This document shows positions 3,495-33,207 of a stretch of 33,536 nt of DNA, piece after piece (the stretch's first letter is position 1; the number at the start of each line of letters is the position of its first letter). A program made the position numbers and the translations under genes. The notes beneath the pieces were generated by a model. The model made no database searches and was not told the origin of the DNA. It saw only the letters and a program-made list of their open reading frames with translations. Source of the DNA: Chloroflexota bacterium (lineage in GTDB: Bacteria > Chloroflexota > UBA11872 > UBA12225); assembly GCA_947446285.1 (NCBI GenBank), contig CANFGH010000003.1:1-33536 (forward strand), written 5' to 3'.

Positions 3495-3578
3495 GTTCCA
3501 CCCCCACAGATTGGCGTTACGTACCGCAAAACAGACTCCGACCGACGAACGCCATTGACGGTCGTAGCGCACTCCCAA

Positions 3579-7248: not shown

Positions 7249-7325
7249 CGGGGAGTGGCGCAGCCTGGTAGCGCGCAGCGTTCGGGACGCTGAGGTCGGA
7301 GGTTCAAGTCCTCTCTCCCCGACCA
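7249..7325 (+). tRNA. tRNA-Pro (anticodon CGG), CCA encoded
   Basis: CGGGGAG acceptor pairs CTCCCCG + ACCA; anticodon stem CAGCG/CGCTG with loop TTCGGGA; T-arm GGAGGTTCAAGTCCTC. Confidence 0.95.
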
Positions 7326-8846: not shown

Positions 8847-8892
8847 CACCTGACCGCCACTCGCCGACCGTCAGGTGCGCAGGCATGCCTGC
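8847..8892. promoter_or_regulatory. tandem hairpin/palindrome after the ANTAR response regulator
   Basis: CACCTGAC-N15-GTCAGGTG (8847-8877) followed by perfect palindrome GCAGGCATGCCTGC (8879-8892). Confidence 0.5.
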
Positions 8893-9004
8893 CCGCATCG
8901 GAATGCGTGGAGGCACTCGACGGCAATCAGGTCCCCGGGCATCACTTCGGGCATCTGAATGCGCCGAGCCACGGTCTTTCCTCCTGCGCCAACCGCCACG
9001 CGCC

Positions 9005-12613: not shown

Positions 12614-13896
12614 CCCCCACCATGCCACGTCTGCGCGTCACGTTGGTCGCGCCGTTCGCCCGGCAACCCAAGGCGACGACCAGCGCCCGCACCATCCCGC
12701 TTGCGCGCGCCCTCGCGTCGCGTGGGCACACCGTCACCGTGATCATTCCCCCCTACGACAATCCCGCCGAGGGTGGGCGAGACGAAGTCATCGACGGCGT
12801 CCGCATCCAGTCGATGCGCGTTCCCAGGCGCGTCGCCGAGGCAAGTCCGCTCCAGGCGCTTGCCCAGCCGATACTGGCACTGCAAACCGCCCGCGCCACC
12901 ATCGCAACGCGCCCCGACGTCGTCCATCTGTTCAAGCCAAAGGCAGTCACTGGCCTCACCCATCTCGAGTTGCGACGCCGTCATCTTGTTCACGGCCTCC
13001 CACGCCCACCGGCAATCGTGGTCGATACCGACGACTGGGAAGGCGACGGTGGGTGGAACGACTACGAAGCCTATCCGTGGTGGCAGCGACAAATCGTCAA
13101 TGCGCAAGAACGATGGGGGATCGCGAATGCTGACGCCGTCACCGTCGCCAGCCAAACCCTCCAGGCACAGGCATGGGGTTACGGCCAACCGCCCGCCCGC
13201 GTCGAATACCTCCCAAACGGACTTGACGACCGCGACTACCCCAACTGGTGGACAGCTAGCGCGCCCGGCGATTCCGGGAAGCCAAGCAGCGAGCAGGTCC
13301 GGGCACGCCTCGGCATCGGGCCGGGGCCAATCATCCTGCTCTACACGCGCTTCTTCGAGTTCGCACCCCTACGCGCCCTCGAAACCTTCATCGGCATCCG
13401 GAAAGCCGTTCCCAACGCCATGCTCCTCGTCGTCGGCGCCGGCAAGTTCAACCAGGAACGGGACCTCGAAACCGAAGCACGATTGCGGGGATTGACCGGT
13501 GCGGTGCACCTGGCGGGATGGCAACGGCCTGACGCACTGCCGGAGATCCTGTCTCTTGCAGACGTCGCCATTGCCCTCGCCGACGACAACCTCGCCAACC
13601 GTGCCAAGTGTTCGGTCAAGCTGCTGCAACTCTTGCGACTCGGTATCCCGGTGATCGCCGACGCAACTGGCGAGCAATCGAACTACATCGTCCCGAATGT
13701 CTCCGGGATCCTCGTTGCCCCGGGAAACACCGAGGCTATGGCGTCAGCCGCGATCACATGTCTCACCGATCCCGGCCTCCGTCAGGCAATCAGTGCCCAT
13801 GCCCGCACGCGCGCCAAAGATCACTTTGGTTGGGACATGCTCGCGCCAGCCGCCGAACGGGCATACCTCGCCGGTCTTGCCCGCCGCGACCGCTGA
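12610..13896 (+). CDS. glycosyltransferase family 4 (GT-B)
   Basis: Overlaps previous stop by ATGA; RVTLVAPFARQPKATTSARTIPLARALASRGHTVTVI..., ILLYTRFFEF, SVKLLQLLRLGIPVIADATGEQSNYI. Confidence 0.83.
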   Translation: MTPTMPRLRVTLVAPFARQPKATTSARTIPLARALASRGHTVTVIIPPYDNPAEGGRDEVIDGVRIQSMRVPRRVAEASPLQALAQPILALQTARATIATRPDVVHLFKPKAVTGLTHLELRRRHLVHGLPRPPAIVVDTDDWEGDGGWNDYEAYPWWQRQIVNAQERWGIANADAVTVASQTLQAQAWGYGQPPARVEYLPNGLDDRDYPNWWTASAPGDSGKPSSEQVRARLGIGPGPIILLYTRFFEFAPLRALETFIGIRKAVPNAMLLVVGAGKFNQERDLETEARLRGLTGAVHLAGWQRPDALPEILSLADVAIALADDNLANRAKCSVKLLQLLRLGIPVIADATGEQSNYIVPNVSGILVAPGNTEAMASAAITCLTDPGLRQAISAHARTRAKDHFGWDMLAPAAERAYLAGLARRDR

Positions 13897-16422: not shown

Positions 16423-17890
16423 GGCATGCGTCGAACAAGCCGGTGATCAGGCGTTGCCGGTAAGACGCCGATCCCCGGTGATCCGAGAGCGGCGCAAACG
16501 CGGATCCCAATCGGGCACGGGCATCCGCGACATGACTATCACCATTGCGCCATACCGCACCGATCAGCGCGTCCTCCGCACCAATCGCACGCAACGGGGT
16601 TGCCGCAACGCCTCCGTACGCGAAGCGCGCCGAGACCACCCTCTCATTGCCATCGAGAACCACCATGAACGCCGCCGCGACAGTCGAGATATCCACCCGG
16701 TTCCGGCGGGCAACCTTGCGCACAAACGCGACACGTCGCCCACCGCGAGGCACCACGTCGTCGTCAACCCGCAGCGCAATCAGGAGTTCGTCTGCGCCAA
16801 CCGCCGTCTGTCGATAGCCCGTGAAGAAATCCGACACTCGGACCTCACGGATCCCCGATCTTCCACCGATCAATGCAACCGCGCCATGTGCGAGCCAGAC
16901 CGGAGACATGTCGCCGATCGGCGACGCCGTCATCAGGTTGCCGCCGACTGTCGCGCGGTTCCTGATCTGGCGCGATGCGAACCATGGCAGCATGTGCCCG
17001 GCCAACGGCGCCCCGCCATCGCGCAAAAAATCTTCCAGGGCAGTCATGGTCACCCCGGCGCCAATCGTGATGCTCCCCTCGGCACGCGAGCAGTTTGAGA
17101 AGATCGGGTCGCGGATGGCATCCAGTGATAGGATGCCCTGATACCTTCGAAACCCGCGCGTGATTTCAACCCCCACGTCGGTGGCACCGGCAATCACGCG
17201 CAGTCCGGGTTCACTGGCACGGCGGGCAATCGATTCGGCAAGCGTGGACGGTCGATACGCCACGACCGCCGAACCCAGTCCGGCCGTCACCGCACCAACA
17301 ACGGGATCTTGCAGGCACCTTGCGAAGCGGTCCGTGCCCTCCGAACGATCGACTGACCCGGCGCCAGACGTCAGTGTCGCGACCGCGCGCAATGCGCGAT
17401 ATCCTGTGCATCGACACAGGTTCCCTGCGAGAACCTCGCCACCCGGGTCGGGAGACTGTGCGTCCGCCACCAATGGCGAGTAATACGACGCAAACATCGT
17501 CATCACGAAGCCGGGCGTACAAAAACCGCACTGGGAGCCGCCGGTGCTAGCGATTGCCTCCTGGACCGGGTGGAGTTCAGTTTCCGCCCTGACTGCCCCA
17601 TGTCCAGTGTCAACGACGCCTTCGACCGTCCAGACTTCCGCTCCCGGCAACTGCGCTGCCAGTGCCAAGCAGCCATTGATTGCCCGATAGGCGGAAGGGA
17701 GGGCCGAACCTTGGACCGGGTGAGTGGTCTCCCGGACAACGACCGTGCACGCACCGCAGTCACCCTCGGCACACCCCTCCTTGGTGCCGGTCAGTCCGCG
17801 TTCACGGACAAGGTCGAGCAGGGTGACGTGCGGATCGGTTCCCTCAAGTTCAACGCGAACGCCATTGAGCAGGAAAGAAGCCGAGGTCAC
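16391..17890 (-). CDS. xanthine dehydrogenase, fused 2Fe-2S and FAD subunit
   Basis: GTG start at 17890; KEGCAEGDCGACTVVV, GGSQCGFCTPGFVMTMF, NLCRCTGYRAL (two 2Fe-2S sites), IAGATDVGVEITRGFRRYQGILSLDAI and ATVGGNLMTASPIGDMSP (FAD domain). Confidence 0.93.
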   Translation of the reverse strand: MTSASFLLNGVRVELEGTDPHVTLLDLVRERGLTGTKEGCAEGDCGACTVVVRETTHPVQGSALPSAYRAINGCLALAAQLPGAEVWTVEGVVDTGHGAVRAETELHPVQEAIASTGGSQCGFCTPGFVMTMFASYYSPLVADAQSPDPGGEVLAGNLCRCTGYRALRAVATLTSGAGSVDRSEGTDRFARCLQDPVVGAVTAGLGSAVVAYRPSTLAESIARRASEPGLRVIAGATDVGVEITRGFRRYQGILSLDAIRDPIFSNCSRAEGSITIGAGVTMTALEDFLRDGGAPLAGHMLPWFASRQIRNRATVGGNLMTASPIGDMSPVWLAHGAVALIGGRSGIREVRVSDFFTGYRQTAVGADELLIALRVDDDVVPRGGRRVAFVRKVARRNRVDISTVAAAFMVVLDGNERVVSARFAYGGVAATPLRAIGAEDALIGAVWRNGDSHVADARARLGSAFAPLSDHRGSASYRQRLITGLFDACLAETATGSDR

Positions 17891-17984
17891 CCCACACCTT
17901 CCGAACACTTTGGTCCAATACGACGACGTTCCGGTCGACGATTGCGCGCCGCACCGCCCGCACCGCCCGCACCGCTGGAAACGA

Positions 17985-19016
17985 TTACTCGCCCGCCTCG
18001 TCCGGTTCGGATTCGAGCCACGCGTCAATCCCATTCAGGATGCGCTGCTTCACATGTTCCGACGCACCGGACGCCCGCGCGCTCACCCGTGCAAACTCGG
18101 CCAACTGTCCGTCGGTCAAGTTGAAGGCATCACGCACCAGACGGTATTCATCGCAGATCAGGGCGCCGAAGAACAGCTGGTCATCGGTGTTCAGCGTGAT
18201 CGGCACGCCAGCATCCATCAGCTTTGGCAACTGATGCAACTCGATGTCCTGGGCAACACCCAAGAGCAGGTTCGATGTTGGGGCAACGTCACACGTGATC
18301 TGATGCTCGTGCAAGTAAGCCAAGAGGAACGGATCCTCGACCGCTCGCACTCCGTGCGCGATGCGGTGCGGGAATGTCGACTTGATTGCAGCCCACACAC
18401 TCTCCGGTCCCATTGCCTCGCCAGCATGCGGAACGACCAGCAAACCCGCTTCGCGTGCAATGTGACACGCTGGTGCAAAGGGTTCCGGCGGGATCCGTTC
18501 GTCACCCGCAATCCCGAACGCAACGATCCCGTTGTCCTTGTTTCTCGCAGCGAACCGCGCCGCCTCAACCGTACCTTCGACCCCGAAACCACGATTGATG
18601 CCCATCATCAACCCCACCTCGGTGCCCGTTGCGCGGGTCCCCTCAGCAAACCCTTCCTGCATGATCGCCCACGCACCATCAGTGTCGTAATCCTTCAGGC
18701 GGATCTGGGCACCACGAAACGGATGTTGGTTGCCAAGATATTGCGGAACCCCCATGGGTTCCGTGTACCAAACACCTTGGGCAGCTTCATCCTCAACCAG
18801 TTCCCGGCAGATACGCTTCAGGGATTCAGGGCGCTTGATAACAGCCGCCGCCTTGGCATAGACCTGCACGAATTCAGGAAGGTTGCTGAACGTCTGGTTC
18901 GCCTCAGGCATGCCCTCGAGTTCGGCAAGTTCCTTGATGGTGGACGGCCTTGCGCTTCCCTCCAGATGGAGGTGCAAATGTGCCTTTGGCAGTCGGACGA
19001 TTGATCGTCGCTTCAT
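17985..19016 (-). CDS. adenosine deaminase family protein
   Basis: MKRRSIVRLPKAHLHLHLEGS, VVPHAGEAMGPESVW, RIAHGVRA, APTSNLLLG, ITLNTDDQLFFG. Confidence 0.85.
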   Translation of the reverse strand: MKRRSIVRLPKAHLHLHLEGSARPSTIKELAELEGMPEANQTFSNLPEFVQVYAKAAAVIKRPESLKRICRELVEDEAAQGVWYTEPMGVPQYLGNQHPFRGAQIRLKDYDTDGAWAIMQEGFAEGTRATGTEVGLMMGINRGFGVEGTVEAARFAARNKDNGIVAFGIAGDERIPPEPFAPACHIAREAGLLVVPHAGEAMGPESVWAAIKSTFPHRIAHGVRAVEDPFLLAYLHEHQITCDVAPTSNLLLGVAQDIELHQLPKLMDAGVPITLNTDDQLFFGALICDEYRLVRDAFNLTDGQLAEFARVSARASGASEHVKQRILNGIDAWLESEPDEAGE

Positions 19017-19164
19017 GTCTTCGTCACTCCTGAGGGCCACGATGCCGTCTACGCTACCTTTACGGTCAAGTGTACGGTTCGAGACCCTGTATGGGCACCA
19101 TCTCAATCTGGCTTCAAACGGACAACCCTGTACTGGTGCCAATAATCAGGCTCGAGAGCAACCG

Positions 19165-20742
19165 TCAGTTCGTCGCAGGCACTATGACCCGGCCAACACC
19201 CCCTGCCATAAGGAGCCCTATTTCCTCGCGGGTGGCGGTAGCTGCCTCAACCTCACCGACGATCCTACCCCTGAACATCACCAGGATCCGGTCCGAGACC
19301 GCCAGGAGTTCGTCGAGTTCCGCGGATACGAGCAGCACGGCGGCACCGGCATCCCGTGCCGCAATCAGGGCACCGTGAATGAACACTACCGAACCAACAT
19401 CAACGCCTCGGGTCGGTTGTGATGCCACCAAAGCACGGACATCGCGCGACAGTTCGCGGGCAATGATGACCTTCTGCTTGTTTCCACCCGAAAGCGATCC
19501 GACCCGTGCCTCCGGGTTCGCAGGTCTGACATCAAACCGTCCCACCAGATCGCGCGCCTGATCCCGCATTGCCTTCGCCTGCATGACCATCCAGCGGGAA
19601 AACGGCAACCGGTAATAGCGGTTCAGGATCATGTTCTGCGCAACCGTGAACGGAAGAACAAGTCCGTGGCGCTGCCGATCCTCCGGAATGTGGGCTAGCC
19701 CTGCATCTGTTCGTTCGCGCACGGTCGCACGGGTCAAGTCGCGTTCACCGAGGTGGAGAGACCCTGATTGGGTCGCCCGAAGTCCGGTTATCGCCTCGAC
19801 GAGTTCGGTCTGGCCATTTCCCTGCACGCCAGCCACACCCACGATTTCGCCGGTTCGCACTGAAAGCGACACACCATCGACAGCCCGGACCCGGCGGTCA
19901 TCGTTCACCACAAGCTCGCGCACAACAATCACCGGATTTCCCGGAACCGATGGCGCCTTCTCCACACGCAGGAGAACATCGCGCCCGACCATCAGAGATG
20001 CAAGCGACTCTGGCGTGGCGTCGCGTGGCAGGACCTCGCCAGCGACCGCTCCCCGCCGCATCACGACGATCCGGTGGGCCACGTCAAGCACCTCACGCAA
20101 CTTGTGAGAGATGAAGACAATCCCGGTTCCCTCGTGGGCAAGTCCCCGCAGCACCTTGAAAAGGTCGTCCGCCTCCTGAGGGGTCAGGACCGCGGTCGGT
20201 TCGTCCAGGATCAGCACCCGCGCGCCACGGTACAGCGCCTTGATGATCTCGACCCTTTGCTGCTGTCCGACCGAGAGATCCTTCACCAAGGCCCGGGGGT
20301 CAATATCGATGCCGAAACGCCGCCCCAACGCCGTGATCTGCGCTTCGAGGTCACTCAAGTCCAGAATGCCACGTCGAGACGGTTCAACACCCAGGGCAAT
20401 GTTCTCGGCAACCGTGAACGGCGGGACAAGCATGAAGTGCTGGTGCACCATGCCGATCCCGAGAGCAAGTGCATCCCGCGGCGACTGGAGACGCACGGGT
20501 CCTCCGTCGATCAGCACGCTTCCGGCATCCGGCGCGGTCATGCCGAAAAGCATGTTCATGAGCGTCGTCTTGCCGGCACCATTCTCACCGAGCAACGCGA
20601 CGATCTCACCACGACGAACCCCGAACTGCACCTCCTTGTTCGCAATAACTGACCCGTATCGCTTGGTCAGTCCCCGCGCCTCAAGGACATACCCCTCAGA
20701 GGACGGGGGAATTCCCAGCACGCTGCCACCACCAACGGTCAT
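19165..20742 (-). CDS. ABC transporter ATP-binding protein, two fused ATPase domains (nucleoside/BMP-linked type)
   Basis: Walker A GENGAGKTT, signature LSVGQQQRVEI and second signature GSLSGGNKQKVIIAREL; adjacent to two permeases and BMP protein. Confidence 0.92.
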   Translation of the reverse strand: MTVGGGSVLGIPPSSEGYVLEARGLTKRYGSVIANKEVQFGVRRGEIVALLGENGAGKTTLMNMLFGMTAPDAGSVLIDGGPVRLQSPRDALALGIGMVHQHFMLVPPFTVAENIALGVEPSRRGILDLSDLEAQITALGRRFGIDIDPRALVKDLSVGQQQRVEIIKALYRGARVLILDEPTAVLTPQEADDLFKVLRGLAHEGTGIVFISHKLREVLDVAHRIVVMRRGAVAGEVLPRDATPESLASLMVGRDVLLRVEKAPSVPGNPVIVVRELVVNDDRRVRAVDGVSLSVRTGEIVGVAGVQGNGQTELVEAITGLRATQSGSLHLGERDLTRATVRERTDAGLAHIPEDRQRHGLVLPFTVAQNMILNRYYRLPFSRWMVMQAKAMRDQARDLVGRFDVRPANPEARVGSLSGGNKQKVIIARELSRDVRALVASQPTRGVDVGSVVFIHGALIAARDAGAAVLLVSAELDELLAVSDRILVMFRGRIVGEVEAATATREEIGLLMAGGVGRVIVPATN

Positions 20743-20784
20743 GGCCGGTCCCACATCGCGGTCGCGATCACCGGATTACTCATC

Positions 20785-21786
20785 TCAGTCCGCCTCATAG
20801 GGTGTGCCGACGGCCGCGGGCGGACTGACACGGCCAATCACGCCGGCAAGGATGACGATCGTGAGCAGATACGGAAACATCCCCACAATCTGGGCTGGCA
20901 CGGGAATTCCGAATTGTTGGGCATTGATGTGCAAGGCATTTGCCGCCCCGAACAGCAGCGACGCAGCCCACGCACCCGCAGGCGTCCATCCACCAAAGAT
21001 CAGCGCCGCCAAGGCAATGAACCCACGGCCATTTGTCATCAGCGGTTCGAACGCCGGAACCGATTCCAGCGTGAAATACGCGCCACCAATCCCGGCAATC
21101 GCCCCACCGATCATCACGGCGGTGTACCGGGTTCGAATGACACTGATCCCAGCCGCGTGCGCGGCCCGAGGCAGTTCCCCGACTGATCGGAGGCGCAACC
21201 CCCACGGCGTGTGGAAGATCACCAGGTGCGTCAAAGGCACAAGCAGGAGCGCCATCCACGCGATCGGTTGCTGCTGGAAGACTGGCCCGACTACCGGCAA
21301 ATCGGCAAGCACGGGTATCCGGAGCGCAGGCAACAACCCTGCCCCAACGAGTGCCTGGCGACGCACCACTTCTGTCGAGAGGAACCCAGTGATCCCGGCA
21401 GCCATGATGTTAATCACGGTGCCGCTGACAATCTGGTCCACCCGGAGTGAGACCGATAGCCAGGCGTGAAGCGTTGCCATCGCCACCCCGACCGCCATGC
21501 CTGCCAAGACACCGATGAGAAGGCTCTTGGTAACTGCGGCCCCAAGGAATGCCCCGAAGGCCGCCGAGAGCATCATGCCCTCAATGGCGATGTTCGCCAC
21601 CCCACTCCGTTCGCAAAGCAAACCGGCAAGGGCACCAAGTGTCAGGGGTGTCGCGAACCGCAGCATCGTTGCCAGCATGCTTGCGGCGACAATCGATGCC
21701 GAGACATCCGGCGACCGCAATACCTCAGCGCCCCCGATGAGCAAACCGATGCACCCGATGATGAACGCGAAGCGGCCTCGCGTCAC
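20785..21786 (-). CDS. ABC transporter permease (nucleoside type)
   Basis: GTG start 21786 in GTGA overlap with upstream stop; FATPLTLGALAGLLCERSGVANIAIEGMMLSAAFGA. Confidence 0.9.
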   Translation of the reverse strand: MTRGRFAFIIGCIGLLIGGAEVLRSPDVSASIVAASMLATMLRFATPLTLGALAGLLCERSGVANIAIEGMMLSAAFGAFLGAAVTKSLLIGVLAGMAVGVAMATLHAWLSVSLRVDQIVSGTVINIMAAGITGFLSTEVVRRQALVGAGLLPALRIPVLADLPVVGPVFQQQPIAWMALLLVPLTHLVIFHTPWGLRLRSVGELPRAAHAAGISVIRTRYTAVMIGGAIAGIGGAYFTLESVPAFEPLMTNGRGFIALAALIFGGWTPAGAWAASLLFGAANALHINAQQFGIPVPAQIVGMFPYLLTIVILAGVIGRVSPPAAVGTPYEAD

Positions 21787-22916
21787 CGGCCACTCTCCGA
21801 ATCTGCGACAGGTGCCGTTGACGCAGCGACTGGATCTGCTTCGGTTTGCGCCGGGCCAATCCGGTAGATCCACCGGATGATCTGATCAGCCGCGATCATC
21901 AGGAGGACCAGCGCCTGGATCACGGAAATGATGTCCGTGGAAATCTGGGTGCGGAATTGCAACTTCGTCGCACCAGTTCGAAGTGCGGCGAACAGGATTG
22001 ACGACAGCACCACCCCGGATACCGTGTTCCTTCCAAGCAACGCTATGGCAATGCTGTCGAACCCGTACCCGACGTTGAACCCAAGCGTGCTTCGGTAGTT
22101 GACCCCGGCCACTTGCACGGCGCCAGCAAGGCCCGCAAGCATTCCCGAAACGCCCATGGCCCAGGTCATGCGCCGGACGACGTTGACCCCTGCATACGAG
22201 GCCGCATCCGGATTGATCCCCACCATCCGGAGTTCAAATCCCGTGGTCGTCTTCCACAGGACAAACCAGACCAAGACCGCGACACCGATCACAAGGATCA
22301 CCCCACTGTGGAGGCCAGGAACGAGATCAGGCAGACGTGCCGTCTCCGCCACCTTCGGCGTCTGCGCGATCACATTCAACGGCGAACGGTCGCGCAACAC
22401 CCCATTCAGCAGATACGCCGCGAGTTGCCCTCCGACGTAATTGAGCATGATGGTCGTGATGACCTCATGCGCACCGGTTCGCGCCTTCAGCAGTCCGGCG
22501 ATTCCGCCCCAAATGGCACCTGCAAGGCATCCAGTGAGGAGCACGAGGGGCAAGTGGATGACCAACGGCAGTGAGGTGACCGTGAAACCGACCCATGCAC
22601 TTGCAAGTGCGCCGACCGCCAACTGTCCCTCGGCACCAATGTTGAACATCCCTCCGCGAAACCCGACCATGACGGCCAATCCCGTGAAGACGTAGGGAAC
22701 CATTCGGAGGACCGTATCGATGGTTGCAGCCCGCGACCCGAACGCGCCTTCAATCAGGGCCTGGTACGCCTCGACGACGAACCAGATCCCGAACCATGGA
22801 CCGTCAATCCTCGGGCCTGAGGCCCAGATGATGACGCCTCCGATGAGCAACGCCGTCACGATGGCAAGCGACGGAATCAGCCCGCCGATCAATCGCGCCC
22901 TGACGGCCTGCGTCAC
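21783..22916 (-). CDS. ABC transporter permease (nucleoside type)
   Basis: PYVFTGLAVMVGFRGGMFNIGAEGQLAVGAL and HEVITTIMLNYVG, typical of YufP/NupP-like permeases. Confidence 0.9.
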   Translation of the reverse strand: MTQAVRARLIGGLIPSLAIVTALLIGGVIIWASGPRIDGPWFGIWFVVEAYQALIEGAFGSRAATIDTVLRMVPYVFTGLAVMVGFRGGMFNIGAEGQLAVGALASAWVGFTVTSLPLVIHLPLVLLTGCLAGAIWGGIAGLLKARTGAHEVITTIMLNYVGGQLAAYLLNGVLRDRSPLNVIAQTPKVAETARLPDLVPGLHSGVILVIGVAVLVWFVLWKTTTGFELRMVGINPDAASYAGVNVVRRMTWAMGVSGMLAGLAGAVQVAGVNYRSTLGFNVGYGFDSIAIALLGRNTVSGVVLSSILFAALRTGATKLQFRTQISTDIISVIQALVLLMIAADQIIRWIYRIGPAQTEADPVAASTAPVADSESGR

Positions 22917-23038: not shown

Positions 23039-24178
23039 TTAGCCCTTGGCCGGCTTGACGTTGGTCTTGAGCGTGCCGGCATCGAGATCCTTGCGGATGG
23101 TCTCAAGCTTGGTCTTGATCTCGGCGCTGACCTTTGAGTCAAGATCATGGAACGGTGCGAGGCCAACCTTGCCGTTGACGTTCCCTCCCTTGAACTTGCC
23201 ATCAGATACTGCCTTGATCAGATCAGAGACGCCCTGGTCGATGATCTTCATCCCGCTTGAAAGCAGGACGGCCTTCGCCTCTGGGACGGTGAGGTACTGA
23301 TCGGTATCGACACCGATCGCCAGCACACCCTTGTCCTTGCGTTCCGCGACACCGTAGAGAGCCCCGTTTCCGGTCTTGCCGCCGGCACCGAAGATCACAT
23401 CGACACCCTTGTCGGCCATGGAAAGCGCCGTGGCCTTGCCCCACTCGGGATCGTCGAAGGTCTTCTCCGGTCCCACGTCGCTGTGATAGACGATCTGGAG
23501 ATCGGCATCAGCCTTGGCGAACTTCACTCCGGCACGGAAACCCTCGCCGAACCGCCACACGGGTGGCACGACATCGGTGGCAAGCACCGCGCCGACCTTG
23601 CCACTCTTGGAGACGAGCGCCGAAAGGACACCAACCATGAACCCGGCCTTGTCCTCCTCGAAGATCAGTCCGGCGAGGTTCTCGACCGGCTTCTCCTGGA
23701 ACTGATCAACACCGATGAACTTGATCGTCGGATTGGCCTTCGCCGCCTCAATCGTCGCATCGCCGAGCAGGAAGCCGACCGTGACGATCACGTCGTACTT
23801 CTCGGATACGAACTGCTGGATGTTCTTCTTGTAGTCGTTGGGATCCCGGGTCTCGACGTACTTCGACTCACCCTTGATCGCCGCCGCGCCAGCCTTGGCG
23901 CCATTCCAAGCCGACTCGTTGAAGCTCTTGTCGTCGACCTTGCCGACGTCAGTCACGAGGCCGACCTTGAGCACCTTGGCCGCCACCGTCGGCTCGGGGG
24001 CCTTGGTTGGGGCAGCCGCCGCCGCGGGTGCGGTCGTTGGTGCTGCGGGCGCCGGAGCTGCCGGTGCCTTGGTTGGTTCAGCCTTCGCTGCAGGCGCGGC
24101 CGGAGCCGCCTCACCACCGCATGCTGCCAAAATAGGCAACGCTGCCAGCCCAAATAACAGATTACGCCGTGTTCTCAT
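23039..24178 (-). CDS. BMP family nucleoside-binding lipoprotein (ABC SBP)
   Basis: MRTRRNLLFGLAALPILAACGG lipobox; KVGLVTDVGKVDDKSFNESAWNGAKAG; GGAGGAG RBS upstream of ATG 24178. Confidence 0.92.
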   Translation of the reverse strand: MRTRRNLLFGLAALPILAACGGEAAPAAPAAKAEPTKAPAAPAPAAPTTAPAAAAAPTKAPEPTVAAKVLKVGLVTDVGKVDDKSFNESAWNGAKAGAAAIKGESKYVETRDPNDYKKNIQQFVSEKYDVIVTVGFLLGDATIEAAKANPTIKFIGVDQFQEKPVENLAGLIFEEDKAGFMVGVLSALVSKSGKVGAVLATDVVPPVWRFGEGFRAGVKFAKADADLQIVYHSDVGPEKTFDDPEWGKATALSMADKGVDVIFGAGGKTGNGALYGVAERKDKGVLAIGVDTDQYLTVPEAKAVLLSSGMKIIDQGVSDLIKAVSDGKFKGGNVNGKVGLAPFHDLDSKVSAEIKTKLETIRKDLDAGTLKTNVKPAKG

Positions 24179-24294
24179 CACCACTCCTCCATTGGAACAA
24201 CCACTGGGTGCGCCAGCTGACTGCTTCCCCGCCCCCTGCGCAGTCGACTTCCGCGAGTATAGCGAGGAAAGGCCACGCTACCGGCGACACACCC

Positions 24295-25632
24295 CTACCC
24301 AGACAACCTCGCCAAGGCATGGGCAAGCACGCGCACGCCATTCGCGATCTCTTCCGGGGCGGTGAACTCATCAGGCCGATGGCTTACCCCACCGCGGCAC
24401 GGCACAAAAACCATCGCCGTGGGACAGATGCGAGGCATGAACAACGCATCGTGATAGGCGCGGCTCGGCAACTGGTGGGTTGCAAGTCCAGCATCGGCTG
24501 CACTGGCCTCCAAGACATCCCGCAGATCACGATGCATGGTTTCTGGCAGGTCGGTGGTTACCACCTCAAGGTCTATCCGAACTCCCCGTCGCGAGGCAAT
24601 CCCGGCAGCGTCGTCGCCTAGCTGCCGAAGCACGCCATCCCGTCTCGCCCCCTCGACGTCGCGTACATCAATGGAGAGTCGAACCTCCGATGGAACCCCA
24701 TTCACCGCCCCGGGAAAGACCGCTATCTGACCGACCGTTCCGACGGTGTCGATGCTTCCAGTTCCACGGGCGGCAGCTTCCACGCAGAGGATCAGTTCGG
24801 CAGACGCAGTCAACGCATCGTGTCGATCTGGCATCAGCAAGCCGCCGGCATGCCCGCCCTCGCCGGTGATCACTGCCCGGACCGTCGCCGGCGCCGCGAT
24901 CGCGGTCACCACCCCAATTGGCAGGCCAAGCCGCTCAAGCACCGGACCTTGCTCAATGTGCAGTTCCAGAAAGGCATGGTAGGTTCCTTCCGGAACCCTG
25001 ACGTTCTCCAAGGGCCCGGACCAGCCTGCCTGACGGCGTGCCTCCTCGACACCGTGACCTTCGCCATCTCGCAGGGAACGAGCCTGGTCTGGTGACATTG
25101 CACCGGACATCAGTCGGCTGCCAAGGCACCCAACGCCAAACCGCGTCGGTTCCTCACTGGCGAACACGATGATCTCGAGAGACCGCGTCGGGACGAAACC
25201 GGCGTGCTGGAGTGCCCTCACCGCCTCGATTGCCCCGACGACACCCACGCACCCGTCATACAGCCCGGCATTCGGAATGGCGTCCACGTGCGACCCGGTT
25301 GCCACGGGAGGCAGTGACGGGTCCGACCCGGACCACCGGGCATAGATCGTCCCGATCTCATCGGTGCGCAGTTCCAGTCCAACTTCTTCAAGGAGACTCG
25401 ATACATACGCGCGCCCAGCTACGTCAGTCGGTGTCCAGAGAACCCTAGTCACGGCGGGTGGGGGCGCATCGGTAAACGTGGCCAAGTGCGCCAACTGTGC
25501 CTGTATCCGACCCGCGTCAACGCTAATGCGACTGGTCTCAACCGCAGGCTGGTTCCGCCGCGCAGTCGCAAAATCTGAAGAACCGTCCTCAGATCTGCGA
25601 CCTTGGGATGGAGCGGCACGATCAGTCATCAT
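24295..25632 (-). CDS. M20 family Zn-dependent amidohydrolase, probable ureidoglycolate amidohydrolase (UAH type)
   Basis: GSHVDAIPNAGLYDGCVGVVGAIEA, SEEPTRFGVGCLGSRLMSG, FLELHIEQGPVLE, GVVTAIAAPATVRAVITGEGGHAGGLLMP, SIDTVGTVG, SRAYHDALFMPRICP..FVPCRGGVSHRPDE; resembles plant UAH from memory. Confidence 0.75.
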   Translation of the reverse strand: MMTDRAAPSQGRRSEDGSSDFATARRNQPAVETSRISVDAGRIQAQLAHLATFTDAPPPAVTRVLWTPTDVAGRAYVSSLLEEVGLELRTDEIGTIYARWSGSDPSLPPVATGSHVDAIPNAGLYDGCVGVVGAIEAVRALQHAGFVPTRSLEIIVFASEEPTRFGVGCLGSRLMSGAMSPDQARSLRDGEGHGVEEARRQAGWSGPLENVRVPEGTYHAFLELHIEQGPVLERLGLPIGVVTAIAAPATVRAVITGEGGHAGGLLMPDRHDALTASAELILCVEAAARGTGSIDTVGTVGQIAVFPGAVNGVPSEVRLSIDVRDVEGARRDGVLRQLGDDAAGIASRRGVRIDLEVVTTDLPETMHRDLRDVLEASAADAGLATHQLPSRAYHDALFMPRICPTAMVFVPCRGGVSHRPDEFTAPEEIANGVRVLAHALARLSG

Positions 25633-26399
25633 GCGTCTCCGGGTGCGATGGTCAAATCAAGCAGCGGATTGCGGTTTCCGTTCTTGTAATACAGGTACCG
25701 TGCTGGCTCATTCCCGATCGCTGCGAACCACTGCGGGCAGAACGGTCCCATCCACATCTGATCCTCGCGCTGCACCGGGTACCACTGGTCCTCCAGACGA
25801 TAGATGCCACCACCCTGCAGGAAGATCACCCCGTGCTCCATGTAATGGCTTTCCACCAGGGGCAGACATGCGCCCGGTTCAAACGTGAACACATTCATGG
25901 CAATGTCGAACCCCGGCAGATCGGGCAAGAGGGACTGAAGCCGGGCACGGGGATCCCCAAGAAACGGCACCTTCTCAATCTCATCCAAACGTGAAACAAC
26001 CACAAATGCCGGTTCCGCACCGTGCGGCGCGGTGATTGCGCGACGGTCAAGCACGAACACCCGACTCGCGGTTACCGCGTCCATGCCGGTGACTGTCCCC
26101 GACGGGGCGAACGCAAATCCCTCCTCATGCAGTTCGTGCACATCGTGTCCTGCTCGGAACTTCACGCTTCCTTCAAGGACGAAGACAAATCGCTCGACCC
26201 CCACCGGCGGAGGTGCAGCGTGCCCGCCCACCGCCATCTCGGCGATGTACTGGACGAAGCCCGCCCCGACCTGCGGCGAGATTGTCACGATCGTTCGCGT
26301 GCCGGTCCACCCGGGAAAGGACGTCTTGACATGACTTTCTGGGGTGATTACTGCATGCCTCGCGCCAATGAATGTACGTGTGGTCGGTGGCAGGGCCAT
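25629..26399 (-). CDS. allE: (S)-ureidoglycine aminohydrolase (bicupin)
   Basis: MALPPTTRTFIGARHAVITPESHVKTSFPGWTGT..., FVFVLEGSVKFRAG, FEPGACLPLVESHYMEHGVIFLQGGGIYRLEDQWYPVQREDQMWMGPFCPQWF. Confidence 0.88.
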   Translation of the reverse strand: MALPPTTRTFIGARHAVITPESHVKTSFPGWTGTRTIVTISPQVGAGFVQYIAEMAVGGHAAPPPVGVERFVFVLEGSVKFRAGHDVHELHEEGFAFAPSGTVTGMDAVTASRVFVLDRRAITAPHGAEPAFVVVSRLDEIEKVPFLGDPRARLQSLLPDLPGFDIAMNVFTFEPGACLPLVESHYMEHGVIFLQGGGIYRLEDQWYPVQREDQMWMGPFCPQWFAAIGNEPARYLYYKNGNRNPLLDLTIAPGDA

Positions 26400-26453
26400 G
26401 GCTTCTATTCCTCGAGTGTGGTTCCCGAAGGTTCGGGTGCGGACCATCTGTGG

Positions 26454-27809
26454 TCAGGCGTGCGTGGCGGGACGCACGAGCCGTCCCTGGGGTTCGCCAA
26501 CCGGCTTGCCATCGATCGCAACCGTTATCCCCCGCAGGATTGTTCGATGCGCTCGTCCGGTGAAGGATCTTCCTACGTAGGGGCTCTGCAAGTGCCGGTA
26601 ATGAAGGTCCGAGCGCGCCAGAACGGTGTGTTCATCGGTAGCCACGAACGTGAGATCGGCATCGGCCCCAACGGCAATCCGTCCCTTGCGAGGCGCAAGG
26701 CCGAAGCGGCTCGCAGGACCGGCAGCGACCAGCGCCGCAATCTGTGCAAGAGATAACCCGTGTGCCGGACCCTCGGTCAGGAGCGCACCAAGCGTCGATT
26801 GCACTCCCGAGATACCTCCCCAGACTGCGAAGAAATCATCGCCGTCCTTCATGGACGGAGGGGCAGGGGAGTGATCCGATACCACCATGCCGACCCCGCC
26901 ACCAACGACAACTTCCCAGAGACGCGCCCGTTCTTCAGCATTGCGAACCGGTGGGGCACACTTCGCAATCGCTCCGAGCACATCAATGTCCTCGTCCGTG
27001 AAGGTGAGGTAGTGCGGACAGGTCTCGCAAGAAACGTCGATCCCGCGCGCCCGGGCAGCGGCCACGATTGCCGCTCCACGGCCACTACTGACATGCACGA
27101 TATGCAGGCGAGCACCCGTCGCCTCGGCGAGATGAATCGCCCGCACGATGGCCTCGGTTTCGGCAACAACCGGGCGCGACGCCAGGTATGACCGGACGTC
27201 CCTTCCTCCGGATGCCCGCAACCGTGCCGTCAAACCTCGGGTGATCGCGTCGTTTTCGGCATGGACGGCCATGACCATGCCCAGTTCCGCCGCAATGGTC
27301 ATCCCGTCCATGAGGGTCAGATCATCGGACGCGGCAAACTCCGGCAAGCCACTGTCGGACATGAACGCCTTGACCCCGATCACTCCCCGGGCATGCAGTT
27401 CACGTAGGCGGTCGACGTTTCCCGGCACCAATCCGCCCCAGAGGGCGAAATCGACGTGCGCGATGCGTGAGGCAATTGCCAGTTTCTCGTCGAAGCTTGC
27501 TCCGTCCAAGGTCAATGGCAGGTTATTGAGGGGCATGTCGCCGAATGTCGTGCCCCCGCCGACGGCAAAGGCACGGCTACCCGTAGAAAGCCCCTCCCAG
27601 TTGGTGCGCCCCGGTTCATTGAAGTGGACGTGGGTATCCACGGCGCCCGGAAAGACATGAAGCCCTGAGGCATCGATCGCCGTGGCGGATCCGGCGTGCA
27701 GATCCGGCCCGATGGCGGAAATGATTCCGTCTTGAATTTCGATGTCTTCCCGCCAGACAGACCCGTCACGGACGACCAAGCCACCCCGAACAACCTGCCT
27801 GCCGGTCAT
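26454..27809 (-). CDS. allB: allantoinase
   Basis: VFPGAVDTHVHFNEPGRTNWEG, KAFMSDSGLPEF, HIVHVSS, CETCPHYLTFTDED, VSDHSPAPPSMK: cyclic amidohydrolase/allantoinase signatures. Confidence 0.92.
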   Translation of the reverse strand: MTGRQVVRGGLVVRDGSVWREDIEIQDGIISAIGPDLHAGSATAIDASGLHVFPGAVDTHVHFNEPGRTNWEGLSTGSRAFAVGGGTTFGDMPLNNLPLTLDGASFDEKLAIASRIAHVDFALWGGLVPGNVDRLRELHARGVIGVKAFMSDSGLPEFAASDDLTLMDGMTIAAELGMVMAVHAENDAITRGLTARLRASGGRDVRSYLASRPVVAETEAIVRAIHLAEATGARLHIVHVSSGRGAAIVAAARARGIDVSCETCPHYLTFTDEDIDVLGAIAKCAPPVRNAEERARLWEVVVGGGVGMVVSDHSPAPPSMKDGDDFFAVWGGISGVQSTLGALLTEGPAHGLSLAQIAALVAAGPASRFGLAPRKGRIAVGADADLTFVATDEHTVLARSDLHYRHLQSPYVGRSFTGRAHRTILRGITVAIDGKPVGEPQGRLVRPATHA

Positions 27810-29152
27810 CACTCCCTGCCTCCCGCATTCGCCATTCCATGCCAATCACCGGAACGGACGCGTTCCGCCACGACCTGAACGGTCTGGACAAGCAGGCCCA
27901 GGGCAACCGCAACATCGGCCTCGATGACCGATTCATCTGGATGATGACTGATTCCACCCGGTGACCGGACGAAAAACATCCCGACCGGCGCGATGGTCGC
28001 CATCACCATTGCATCGTGGCCCGCACCGCTGACTACCTCGCGCAACTCGCTACCGAACGTTCGTCGGGAGGCCTCCTGGATTGCATCGATCACCCTGGGG
28101 TCGCACGCCACCGGCGCAACATCCATGATTCCATCCACGTCAACACCAAGGCCCCGCGACCCCGCGATTGACCCGATGGCATCGATGATTATCCCGACCG
28201 CCTCCTGAAGCGTCGTCCCGACCGCGTGGCGAATATCCAGCGAGAACGTCACCTCGCCCGGGATCACATTCGCCGATCCCGGATTCACCTTCAGTGCGCC
28301 AACCGTCGCGACCAATCCCGGTGTCTGCCTCGCCACACGTTCGACCGCCAGCACCGCCTCGGCGGCACCGGCCAATGCATCCGCCCGCAAACGCATCGGT
28401 GTGGTCCCTGCGTGATTGGCGCATCCGGTCAAGGTGACGCGTCGGCGGGTCTGCCCAGCAATCGCTGATACCACCCCAATCGCCTCACCCGCGGCATCAA
28501 GGACCGGTCCCTGTTCGATGTGGGGCTCCAGATACAGAAGAACCTCATGCGGCGCATACGCAGGCCGTTGACCGGCCACGTTTTCCGGGTCAAGCCCGGC
28601 GTCTCGCAACGCCTGCCCAAATGAGACCGCGTCATCATCGAGGCGCGCCAGAAGTTCAACAGGCAGGTCTCCAACCATCATCCGGCTGCCGAGGAACGGC
28701 AGTGAAAACCGCGCACCCTCCTCGCCTGCAAACGCCACGACATCGATCCCGAACGGCTGGGACGGAAAGAGCGAACTACTCGGTGTGACAAGCGTCTCCA
28801 TCAGGGCAATGCCAAGCAGTACGCCAAGCGGACCGTCAAATCGTCCGGCATTCCGAACGGTGTCGATATGTGACCCGATGACAATGACCGGGACATTCGC
28901 GGCACCCGATGGTCGCCACCGACCGGTGACATTTCCGACCGGATCAATCGTGACCTGTCCACCGGCATCCCGCATCCACGACGCGACCAATCGCTCGGCT
29001 TCGCGTGCAGCAGTTGTGAGCGGCCTCCGCGTCAGATTGCCAGGTTGCTCACTGACCAGTCCAAGCTCGGCGCACCGTTCCAGCACCACCGACGCGCGCG
29101 CAGCCTGGCCGGGATCACGCTCGCCGCCACCGGGCCCAGGCCGAAGTGTCAC
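27809..29152 (-). CDS. M20 family Zn-dependent amidohydrolase, probable allantoate amidohydrolase
   Basis: GTG start 29152; GSHIDTVRNAGRFDGPLGVLLGIA, AFAGEEGARFSLPFLGSRMM, LEPHIEQGPVLDAAGEAIGVVSAIAGQTRRRVTLTGCANHAGTTPM, SGAGHDAMVMA. Confidence 0.82.
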   Translation of the reverse strand: MTLRPGPGGGERDPGQAARASVVLERCAELGLVSEQPGNLTRRPLTTAAREAERLVASWMRDAGGQVTIDPVGNVTGRWRPSGAANVPVIVIGSHIDTVRNAGRFDGPLGVLLGIALMETLVTPSSSLFPSQPFGIDVVAFAGEEGARFSLPFLGSRMMVGDLPVELLARLDDDAVSFGQALRDAGLDPENVAGQRPAYAPHEVLLYLEPHIEQGPVLDAAGEAIGVVSAIAGQTRRRVTLTGCANHAGTTPMRLRADALAGAAEAVLAVERVARQTPGLVATVGALKVNPGSANVIPGEVTFSLDIRHAVGTTLQEAVGIIIDAIGSIAGSRGLGVDVDGIMDVAPVACDPRVIDAIQEASRRTFGSELREVVSGAGHDAMVMATIAPVGMFFVRSPGGISHHPDESVIEADVAVALGLLVQTVQVVAERVRSGDWHGMANAGGRE

Positions 29153-29154
29153 GG

Positions 29155-29535
29155 TCAGCTGCCACGGTAGGTGCTGTACGCCCACGGGGACAACAGCAAC
29201 GGTACGTGATAGTGCGCGTCGCCATCGGCAATCCCGAACCGGACCGGCACCGTCTCCAGAAAGGACGGATCAGGCAACGTCACGCCACACTGTCGGAAGT
29301 ACTCACCAGCGTGGAAGACCAATTCGTACCTTCCGGACAGCAGGTCTCCCGGTTGCACCACGGGACCGTCGACACGGCCGTCACCATTGGTTACGACCTC
29401 ACGGACGCGCACACGCTCACCACTGACGGAATCAAACCGGAAGAGCTCAATACGCATGCCGGCCGCCGGGCATCCATGCATGGTGTCCAGCACGTGCGTC
29501 GTCAGTCGACCACCAGTTACCGACACGTCTTGCAA
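29155..29535 (-). CDS. uraH: 5-hydroxyisourate hydrolase (transthyretin-like)
   Basis: RLTTHVLDTMHGCPAAGMRIELF and C-terminal HYHVPLLLSPWAYSTYRGS hallmark. Confidence 0.96.
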   Translation of the reverse strand: MQDVSVTGGRLTTHVLDTMHGCPAAGMRIELFRFDSVSGERVRVREVVTNGDGRVDGPVVQPGDLLSGRYELVFHAGEYFRQCGVTLPDPSFLETVPVRFGIADGDAHYHVPLLLSPWAYSTYRGS

Positions 29536-29538
29536 ACC

Positions 29539-30468
29539 TCAGGCATCGCGGTGCACCACGAGGCTGATGCTGCCGTACGGCGGTCGCGGGTCACAATAGG
29601 ACACCACCTTGCTGCCATCGTCGGCCCGTACAACCACGTCCCAAAGGCGGTTCTGGGCCTCGAAACTCACGGTCGCGAGTTGCGGAAACCGCGCGAGTAT
29701 GCGCTGGCCCATCTCCCAGACAAGGTGCTGGATTGACATGCTCACGAACTCATGGAAGGTCGCGGCGCACAGGTCGCGTACCTGCTCTGCCGGTACGTAG
29801 GTCACATGGGTCGGATCCAGAAGCGCACTGGTGTCCGAGTAGGTCCACCCTACATCGAGGAAGATGTACAGCGGCCGGTCAACCCGTTCCTCGAGGGTCG
29901 TGAAACCGTCCCGCACAAACCGTGCGAACGCTGACCCTGTGACCTTGATCAGTTGCAACCCTGCGATCCCGCACTCATGGTGGGTCACGTGGGTTCCAGA
30001 ACCGTCGCGTTTGACGTCCAGCGAAGCCGTCCCTGTCTCGTCACGCCCGTGGCTGAACAGCACGTTGCTCGGCCCAAAACCATCGTCCGTCGGCACCACC
30101 GAAGCGCGATACGGCAACTCACGCCCGCGAACGCGCACCCAACCCATCTGGGGGTACGTCACAAGGAACTGCGTCCCAAGAAACTCCAGGAACCCTTCAA
30201 GTGTCGCCCCGGTGTACGCGATCGCCATCTGATGCACAAAGTTCTTCATCGAGTCGGTCGCGACCACCTGGGAATTGTCCCCCTCGGTGTACGACGCCAG
30301 GAAACTGTCGCCGTAGACCTCGACATCCACGTCATAGGCAAACAGGGTGTTCGCCCGACCCGTGAACGAGGATTCGGGGATGGCCTTGACCCCGGAGAGG
30401 GGAGACGCGTAGAAGCGGTACAAGGAGACACTCGACTTGCCGTATCGGATTTCAGGGCTCATGGTCAT
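29539..30468 (-). CDS. urate oxidase (uricase), PucL type
   Basis: IRYGKSSVSLYRFY, YTEGDNSQVVATDSMKNFVHQMA, YPQMGWVRV; adjacent to uraH and OHCU decarboxylase. Confidence 0.93.
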   Translation of the reverse strand: MTMSPEIRYGKSSVSLYRFYASPLSGVKAIPESSFTGRANTLFAYDVDVEVYGDSFLASYTEGDNSQVVATDSMKNFVHQMAIAYTGATLEGFLEFLGTQFLVTYPQMGWVRVRGRELPYRASVVPTDDGFGPSNVLFSHGRDETGTASLDVKRDGSGTHVTHHECGIAGLQLIKVTGSAFARFVRDGFTTLEERVDRPLYIFLDVGWTYSDTSALLDPTHVTYVPAEQVRDLCAATFHEFVSMSIQHLVWEMGQRILARFPQLATVSFEAQNRLWDVVVRADDGSKVVSYCDPRPPYGSISLVVHRDA

Positions 30469-30520: not shown

Positions 30521-31027
30521 TCACGCCACATCAACGTCAGGCACCAATTGATCCAGCCTGATTTCGGCAATGCGCTCAATCTGTGCCAAAGCCGTGCGTA
30601 TCTCTTGGTCGCGGTTGTTTCCCAGGCGCCGCTCGAATGCCTCAAGGATGCCTGCGCGCGTGGTATCGCGTACCGCAATGATGAACGGGAACCCAAACCG
30701 GTCGCGATATCGGGAATTCAGGTCGTGAAACCGTCGGAATGCCGCTTCAGGCATCTGGTCAAGCCCCGCACTCGCCTGATCGGCAGTCGACGACGTACTC
30801 AGGCGAACCCGTGCACCGAGATCAGGATGCGCGCAGATAAGCGTTAGGTGCGCTTCGGGATCAGCACGGCGAACCACTGCAACCATCGCACCGTGCAGCT
30901 CGGTACGCGTCGCGAACGGACGGGCATCGACAACACCCTCGGCGACCCACGGCGAATGTTCGAAGATCTCCCCGAGAAGCCGCACGAATTCAGACCGGTC
31001 GCATGCGTTCAGCGTCTGCACGTCCAT
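30521..31027 (-). CDS. uraD: 2-oxo-4-hydroxy-4-carboxy-5-ureidoimidazoline (OHCU) decarboxylase
   Basis: MDVQTLNACDRSEFVRLLGEIFEHSPWVAE, LICAHPDLGARVR, FPFIIAVRDTTRAGILEAFERRLGNNRDQEI. Confidence 0.94.
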   Translation of the reverse strand: MDVQTLNACDRSEFVRLLGEIFEHSPWVAEGVVDARPFATRTELHGAMVAVVRRADPEAHLTLICAHPDLGARVRLSTSSTADQASAGLDQMPEAAFRRFHDLNSRYRDRFGFPFIIAVRDTTRAGILEAFERRLGNNRDQEIRTALAQIERIAEIRLDQLVPDVDVA

Positions 31028-31038
31028 CGTTAGATTCA

Positions 31039-31147
31039 ACGGTACGACGGAACCGGCCACCAGTGCCACCCAGTGGTTTCGATCCCGTAGCATCCCGAAA
31101 TTGAGAACATCTGACGGATTGAAAAAATGGACCGGCAGTCGTACCGT
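31039..31147. promoter_or_regulatory. divergent intergenic region bounded by a perfect 10-bp inverted repeat
   Basis: ACGGTACGAC (31039-31048) and GTCGTACCGT (31138-31147), between divergent uraD and SBP genes. Confidence 0.45.
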
Positions 31148-31167: not shown

Positions 31168-32595
31168 ATGACCGCGACTACACCCAAGCTGGCCACTGAA
31201 ATCCTGGCGAACCACCAATCCGCCCCACGTCGGGCTATTTCACGACGGCGGTCACTCGTCATCGGCGCCGCGTCAGTCACCACCGTTCTCGCCGCGTGCC
31301 AGGTGCCCGGCACACCAGGGACACCCAGCGCCGATACCGCGGGCGCCAACAAGCCTGCGGGTTCCACTGCCATCGAGGTACGCATCCAGACGGTGACCCA
31401 GTCCGACAACGGGGGGTGGATCACCGAGGCGCTCAATCAGGACATCGACGGACGCAAGGCCAAGCAGCCAAACGTCACCGTGAAAGTGGAGACCTTTGGG
31501 GCCTGGACAAACACCTACCTGCCAGACATTGACAAGGTATTCGCGTCGGGCACCGTCGGCGACCTTGTCTGGTACCCGCCTCGCCACCGGTCGCACCTCC
31601 TGTGGGGAAGCCGTCGCAACCTCGTGCGCGACCTCACTTCCCAATTGCGAAGCATGAAGTTCGACCTCGCCCAGTTCTTCAAGGCATCGATTGACCAGAA
31701 CTCGGACGGGGGCAAACTCTACTTCCTGCCGTTCATCTCCGAACCAGTCTGCCCGATCATCGCGATCAACCGTACGGCTGCCGAATCCGCCGGTCTCACC
31801 ATCCCCACGGACGACTGGACATTTGACGACCTCGCCGAATGGGGGCAGAAAGCCGCTGGACGAGGGCTCTTCGGCTATTTCCGCGCCGACTCCGGTGTCG
31901 ATGCTTTCACGAGCGCACCATTTCTCCGCCAGTGGGGGGTCGAGCCTGTCGACCCAACCGGCAAGAAGGCAACCTTTGCCGATACCAAGGACGCATTCAT
32001 CCAGGCACTGACCTACCGCGCGAACATGGTGAACAAGTGGAATGTGTCGCCACCAGTCAAGCCCCAGGGTCCGAACTACATGGAATTGTTCGGAACCCAG
32101 CAGAAACTCCTTGCGATGGACGGATGGCCGGTCCGCATTGGAGGACTACCGAAGCAATTCAAGTCCATCAACATTGAGTTCGTCTTGACTCCGACCGTTC
32201 GCAAGGGTGACAAGCGCCGCACCCTCCTGAATGAACACGCATACGCGCTGACCAAGGGAAGCAAGAACCCGGATGAGGCGCTCTCGGTACTCACATGGAT
32301 GTGCGGGAAGGAGATGGGCGTCCAAGGTGTGATCCAGGGCTTCAAGGGCCCGGTGTCGCGCCCGGATGTCTGGACGGACCCACGAATCCTAGACCGGGCG
32401 CCAATCTACAAGCGCCTCCGACCCCTGATGGAGAACGTGGAATCCGATTACTTCGTGGCGAATTACCGTGGCGAAGAGTTTGATGCCGCGACCAACTGGG
32501 CCGCTGCGGAGGCTGGTGATGTGACCCCGGCACAGATGGCAGACACCATCCAGCGACAGGCGCAAGAAGTCTTGGACAAGCAGGCAACGGCCTGA
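31168..32595 (+). CDS. extracellular solute-binding lipoprotein (carbohydrate-type SBP), probable Tat-lipoprotein
   Basis: SRRRSLVIGAASVTTVLAACQVPG (twin Arg + lipobox); SBP body VTVKVETFGAWTNTYLPDIDKVFASGTVGDLVWY; no adjacent permease/ATPase. Confidence 0.82.
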   Translation: MTATTPKLATEILANHQSAPRRAISRRRSLVIGAASVTTVLAACQVPGTPGTPSADTAGANKPAGSTAIEVRIQTVTQSDNGGWITEALNQDIDGRKAKQPNVTVKVETFGAWTNTYLPDIDKVFASGTVGDLVWYPPRHRSHLLWGSRRNLVRDLTSQLRSMKFDLAQFFKASIDQNSDGGKLYFLPFISEPVCPIIAINRTAAESAGLTIPTDDWTFDDLAEWGQKAAGRGLFGYFRADSGVDAFTSAPFLRQWGVEPVDPTGKKATFADTKDAFIQALTYRANMVNKWNVSPPVKPQGPNYMELFGTQQKLLAMDGWPVRIGGLPKQFKSINIEFVLTPTVRKGDKRRTLLNEHAYALTKGSKNPDEALSVLTWMCGKEMGVQGVIQGFKGPVSRPDVWTDPRILDRAPIYKRLRPLMENVESDYFVANYRGEEFDAATNWAAAEAGDVTPAQMADTIQRQAQEVLDKQATA

Positions 32596-32682: not shown

Positions 32683-33207
32683 CTAGGACTTCGGTTCGGA
32701 AGGGGTGTCGGGCCTCCGAGGTGGCGCCCCCGAGGATGCACCAGCATCCGGCGTACGTGGGCCTCTCGGTCCTTGGCCGGGCCCACCTATCCGGTACCCG
32801 CCCGTTGGCCGCGGTCGCGGGGCACCGCCCCCCGGGGGTGCGGACCGAGGGGGATAGGGACTACGAACCGAGGGGCGAGCTGGGGTCGGCGACTGCGGCG
32901 TCGCGGCATTCCCGGGAGCGCCTGCCTGGGCAGGTTCCGCTGGAGACGCCTGCCGACCAATGCCACCTAGGAGTGACCCAAGACCCGCCATTGCAGACGC
33001 CGGAATTGCGCCACCGGACGACGCAGCAGACGCTGCCCGCCGGTTCTCATCGGTCACGTCCTGCACCAGTTCGTAGCGCAGGACGGTGATGTGCCGTGGC
33101 GCCTGAATGCCGATCTTTACGTGGTCACCCTCGATCGCGAGAACGATGATCTCGATCTCGTCGCCGATCCGGATGCGCTGCTCAGTTTTCCGGCTCAGTA
33201 CGAGCAT
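32683..33207 (-). CDS. csrA: carbon storage regulator CsrA with long Pro/Gly-rich C-terminal extension
   Basis: MLVLSRKTEQRIRIGDEIEIIVLAIEGDHVKIGIQAPRHITVLRYEL is CsrA; followed by about 120 aa low-complexity tail. Confidence 0.93.
   Translation of the reverse strand: MLVLSRKTEQRIRIGDEIEIIVLAIEGDHVKIGIQAPRHITVLRYELVQDVTDENRRAASAASSGGAIPASAMAGLGSLLGGIGRQASPAEPAQAGAPGNAATPQSPTPARPSVRSPYPPRSAPPGGGAPRPRPTGGYRIGGPGQGPRGPRTPDAGASSGAPPRRPDTPSEPKS

Follow-up and report, generated by a model that had tools for sequence, protein, structure and literature searches.

Ureidoglycolate amidohydrolase (UAH) is commonly regarded as an enzyme of plants, and the metal of its Arabidopsis thaliana representative (AtUAH; structures 4PXB, 4PXC and 4PXE) is Mn2+. 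This ammonia-releasing enzyme (EC 3.5.3.19 in the case of AtUAH) is distinct from the urea-releasing enzymes AllA and DAL3 (PMC3793230). UAH occurs in plants and in bacteria (PMC6320678), and Yue et al. (2012), as reported in PMC9667741, suggested that the moss Physcomitrella patens acquired both allantoate amidohydrolase (AAH) and UAH from bacteria. The same M20 amidase family includes the AAH of Escherichia coli, AllC (1Z2L, 4PXD), which acts two steps earlier in the same pathway, and the L-N-carbamoylase of Geobacillus stearothermophilus (3N5F).

We analysed a 33,536-nucleotide stretch of Chloroflexota DNA (hereafter the window), in which the gene at positions 24295 to 25632 of the minus strand very probably encodes a true plant-type UAH. 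Its ORF (445 amino acids counted from the ATG) contains all the motifs quoted in a previous sequence-only reading, which had proposed this function (GSHVDAIPNAGLYDGCVGVVGAIEA, SEEPTRFGVGCLGSRL, GGHAGGLLMP, SRAYHDALFMPRI and VPCRGGVSHRPDE). The gene belongs to a purine cluster whose members all lie on the minus strand, with overlaps or gaps of at most 122 nt, and which may be co-transcribed as an operon. Directly upstream is a gene for (S)-ureidoglycine aminohydrolase (UGlyAH), a cupin (25629-26447; TIGR03214, 266 bits versus a cut-off of 200) that reaches 179 bits with AtUGlyAH (4E2Q) and 120 bits with E. coli YlbA (1RC6), and is thus nearer to the plant enzyme. It is preceded by genes for allantoinase (26454-27845, with a start probably downstream of 27845; TIGR03178, 542 bits versus 357.85), AAH, the M20 paralog of UAH (27809-29152), hydroxyisourate hydrolase (29155-29535; TIGR02962, 126 bits versus 87), urate oxidase (uricase; 29539-30468; TIGR03383, 221 bits versus 168) and OHCU decarboxylase (30521-31093; TIGR03164, 188 bits versus 96).

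Downstream of UAH, a BMP-type ABC importer is encoded by genes for a BMP/PnrA-like solute-binding lipoprotein, probably involved in nucleoside or purine uptake (23039-24184; PF02608, 170 bits), two permeases (21783-22916 and 20785-21873; PF02653, 145 and 134 bits) and a protein with two ATPase domains (19165-20754; PF00005 in two stretches). Genes for adenosine deaminase (17985-19142; TIGR01430, 239 bits versus 217) and for two subunits of xanthine dehydrogenase follow. The molybdenum subunit (14035-16422) contains the MoCoBD_1, MoCoBD_2 and Ald_Xan_dh_C domains, and the FeS/FAD subunit (16391-18034) was recognized from its ORF and from homologues beside purine genes in related loci, one of which (L109:4348-5799) carries FAD_binding_5 and Fer2 domains. 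Taken together, these genes form a complete purine-degradation cluster that spans urate to glyoxylate and adds xanthine dehydrogenase, adenosine deaminase and an importer of the nucleoside type.

Allantoinase, AAH and UGlyAH are all present in the cluster at equivalog level, which leaves ureidoglycolate as the remaining step. In the proposed scheme, UGlyAH would make (S)-ureidoglycolate, the substrate of UAH, and UAH, as a two-metal M20 hydrolase, would cut its ureido bond to give carbamate and hydroxyglycine, both of which would then decompose, yielding glyoxylate, CO2 and two NH3. The net reaction would be that of the plant enzyme: (S)-ureidoglycolate + H2O → glyoxylate + 2 NH3 + CO2. The protein is predicted to be catalytically active and, by analogy with AtUAH, may use Mn2+. 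It would thus complete a pathway, encoded in one cluster, that converts imported purine nucleosides to glyoxylate by way of urate, allantoin and allantoate and releases no urea.

Sequence and structure comparisons both point to AtUAH as the closest characterized relative. A phmmer search of the PDB with the window's UAH ranked AtUAH (4PXE) first with 432 bits, followed by the Geobacillus L-N-carbamoylase (265 bits), E. coli AAH (193 bits) and yeast beta-alanine synthase (164 bits), whereas for the paralog the carbamoylase (276 bits) came ahead of E. coli AAH (195) and AtUAH (174). Identity to AtUAH is 50.6% (about 51%) across 411 aligned positions; it falls to 37% for the carbamoylase 3N5F, 31% for E. 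coli AAH and 30% for the paralog. The AlphaFold2 model of UAH (pLDDT 91.6) has the same fold as AtUAH: Foldseek placed 4PXE and 4PXB on top (E about 1e-57, TM 0.88), and the two best fold matches in the PDB are structures of AtUAH, one with glyoxylate and one with (S)-ureidoglycolate. Beta-alanine synthases and N-carbamoylases rank far below AtUAH in both the sequence and the fold searches.

In a genome scan, at least 23 loci among the 80 listed (L001-L022 and L041) encode proteins that are 46-57% identical to the window's UAH, in most cases along the full length, and below these the identity falls to 41% or less. The maximum-likelihood tree that the sequence-only reading had proposed as a check was inferred with IQ-TREE from 81 proteins, with fewer references than ideal: the characterized ones were AtUAH, E. 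coli AAH (EcAAH) and the Geobacillus carbamoylase (GsLcar), plant AAH not being included, and beta-alanine synthase and the Sinorhizobium meliloti carbamoylase were compared by score only. In this tree, 31 of the 81 proteins, including AtUAH and the window's protein, form a UAH clade with 100/100 support that is present in 100% of the bootstrap trees. E. coli AAH and the window's paralog fall outside it, the latter grouping with cluster-borne AAHs (97/92). Clustering with N-carbamoyl-L-amino acid hydrolases, the outcome named beforehand as counting against the assignment, did not occur, 3N5F being likewise placed outside the clade. Tree, PDB sequence ranking and fold ranking thus agree with the predicted UAH function. 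The bacterial members of the clade come from seven phyla (Acidobacteriota, Planctomycetota, Verrucomicrobiota, Deinococcota, Myxococcota, Bacteroidota and Chloroflexota).

These data make it very improbable that the protein is an N-carbamoyl-L-amino acid hydrolase or another carbamoylase whose likeness to UAH is only that of the family. Such an identity would fit with the 37% identity to 3N5F, an enzyme of the same fold for which we know of no role in purine metabolism, and with the fact that the sole NCBIfam model scored above its cut-off is TIGR01879, a general hydantoinase/carbamoylase family amidase. However, the tree separates the protein from the carbamoylase with full support, AtUAH is ahead by 167 bits, the gene lies among purine genes and the protein carries the clade-specific letters described below; a carbamoylase identity was therefore rejected on tree, scores and context. 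The TIGR01879 match bears out half of the expectation that automatic annotation would call both M20 genes N-carbamoyl amino acid hydrolases; the other half failed, since the model that the paralog satisfies is one for 'allantoate amidohydrolase' (NF006775, 481.1 versus a cut-off of 479). The paralog also contains the AAH-type motifs quoted for it (GSHIDTVRNAGRFDG, GEEGARF and CANHAGTTPM).

The residues H115, D126, E160, E161, H225 and H418 of the window's UAH align with identical residues in AtUAH; we take them to be the two-metal ligands and the catalytic glutamate/base of the M20 family. We then compared 34 sequences of the UAH clade with 87 other members of the family, using the numbering of the window's protein. 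A118, L266, R391 and Y393 are present in 33/34 or 33/33 of the clade sequences with data and in none of the 87 others, and P162 is fixed across the clade and found in 7 of the 87 outside it. AtUAH shows the same clade-specific letters (in AIP, EEPTRFG, LMP and SRAYHD). A118, L266, R391 and Y393 lie near active-site motifs and may have a role in substrate specificity.

These letters also bear on whether the protein could be a second AAH, or a bifunctional enzyme acting on both allantoate and ureidoglycolate, which we regard as highly unlikely. The protein belongs to the same family and reaches 370.8 with an 'allantoate amidohydrolase' subfamily model, but the cut-off of this model is 399 and the protein is below the cut-offs of all AAH models. 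Moreover, its identity to E. coli AAH is low, AllC occupies a separate part of the tree and has T, P, G and G at the four clade-specific positions, and no AAH sequence, that of the paralog included, shows A118, L266, R391 or Y393. Finally, the window's cluster already includes an AAH of a separate clade, as do most related loci beside their UAH. A second AAH was thus rejected on model scores, tree and UAH-specific letters, and the plant-type UAH remains our preferred assignment.

Throughout the clade, L113 is the one sequence in which the metal and catalytic residues are not intact, with L021 ending before the last of them. The L113 protein (L113:6691-7935, minus strand, genome G379), encoded next to UGlyAH, shows D126A, E160D, E161A, H225Y and H418S in the window's numbering and retains R391 and Y393. 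The AAH match in the same genome has an in-frame stop, which would fit either decay of the pathway or a partner protein without catalytic activity.

The UAH start overlaps the UGlyAH stop as ATGA, as originally noticed, with the TGA at 25631-25629 and the UAH ATG at 25632-25630 (surrounding sequence: GGAGACGCATGATG). At 25629, a second ATG in the same frame has the more favourable spacing, 7 nt from a GGAG motif versus 4 nt for the first; starting there would reduce the overlap to 1 nt (TGATG), and the genes abut with either start. Residues 1-18 have a pLDDT below 50, the first 30 or so residues are poorly predicted by AlphaFold2 and homology in the PDB sequence search begins around residue 34. 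The ATGA overlap suggests that the two genes may be translationally coupled; in distant relatives they adjoin with variable spacing.

The association of UGlyAH and UAH extends well beyond the window. UGlyAH lies directly upstream of UAH in 19 of the 21 distant loci with enough upstream DNA, versus 1 of 57 other M20 loci in the same scan; the gap is wider (about 0.9 kb) in L018. The sequence-only reading had matched the overlap of the two genes to successive reaction steps, and the genomic context supports such steps through this conserved order and through the position of AAH and UGlyAH upstream of UAH in the window. Within the phylum, the same order is found in the genus and family of the window's genome and in some members of another family (f16), which groups with a Chloroflexaceae MAG. 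The two genes also co-occur across the phylum: of 400 genomes, 8 have both, 6 have UGlyAH alone and 4 have UAH alone (Fisher p 9e-11, uncorrected for kinship). The predicted UAH function thus follows firmly from sequence and gene order combined.

Other bacterial genes of the clade (L001-L022, L041 and L094-L104) are 46-57% identical to the window's UAH outside its own family and mostly have UGlyAH directly upstream, but differ in cluster make-up, some of them being orphans and L113 lacking the metal ligands. No UGlyAH was found near UAH in L005 and L019 or in the wider loci of G260 (L109) and G024 (L110). In the near-complete UAH-bearing phylum-mates G024, G222, G260 and G267, UGlyAH above its cut-off was found nowhere in the genome, and neither was AAH at E 1e-60. 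These orphans fit the UAH assignment poorly: their ureidoglycolate would have to come from a different source, or the enzyme would serve a different purpose in these organisms. Searching 12 genomes for allantoicase, as a source of ureidoglycolate independent of UGlyAH, gave no match; the control likewise matched nowhere.

Such phylum-mates that keep UAH without UGlyAH could also be taken to mean that ureidoglycolate is mainly cut with urea release by an AllA-like protein or oxidized by an AllD-family dehydrogenase, the UAH gene having drifted to another role. The window's genome does encode an AllA-like protein away from the purine cluster (L083:1219-1836, plus strand, contig C72; PF04115, 51 bits), also present in its three nearest kin, and six matches to the AllD family (Ldh_2). 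We nevertheless give this possibility hardly any credence. The match of the AllA-like protein falls mainly in the second half of the family profile, and its scores with ureidoglycolate lyase models are at most 62 versus cut-offs of at least 160. None of the five full-length dehydrogenases exceeds 200, versus 496 for the AllD model TIGR03175 (the sixth match, a partial one, was not scored). Neither gene type lies in the purine cluster, and AllA or AllD as the main route was rejected on these grounds. Urease was not found in this genome either and is present in two near kin; the genome is 89% complete, so absences from it carry little weight. Glyoxylate carboligase was rejected as a glyoxylate sink (best match 359 bits versus a cut-off of 711).

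Since bacterial UAHs have already been described and their transfer to plants suggested, the gene with UAH as its preferred assignment is a well-supported new bacterial member, one that differs from AtUAH in being bacterial, with no organelle targeting expected, and clustered directly after UGlyAH. The bacterial distribution found here is wider than that described in PMC3793230, PMC6320678 and PMC9667741. It is conceivable, though less likely than not, that plants obtained their UAH, and maybe their UGlyAH too, from a bacterium with a similar cluster, in which case the last two ureide steps would have reached them as neighbouring genes. Support for the placement of AtUAH within the clade is 83/74, too low to single out a donor of the plant gene. 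No UAH model is among the NCBIfam matches of the window's protein, and bacterial UAHs are thus likely to be named amidase or carbamoylase. With the UAH clade, its frequent UGlyAH neighbour and the four diagnostic letters, annotators could spot urea-free purine breakdown in at least seven bacterial phyla. The clade also provides a protein set for tracing the origin of the plant enzyme and what separates ureidoglycolate from allantoate as a substrate; the Chloroflexota cluster itself would contribute a near relative of the plant enzyme by which the final two ammonia molecules of purines are set free.

Among the other genes of the window, two encoding ABC-transporter extracellular solute-binding proteins (SBP_bac_1) flank the purine cluster (2061-3578, minus strand, and 31168-32595, plus strand), with no permeases for them identified in the window. 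A tRNA gene is present at 7249-7322 (plus strand; Rfam RF00005, 62 bits). The ORF at 8885-12613 (plus strand) encodes a 1242-amino-acid protein with weak similarity to the membrane protein YfhO and is followed by a glycosyltransferase-like ORF (12610-13896). The protein encoded at 32683-33207 (minus strand) has a CsrA domain and, at its C terminus, a long tail of some 120 residues rich in Pro, Ala and Gly.
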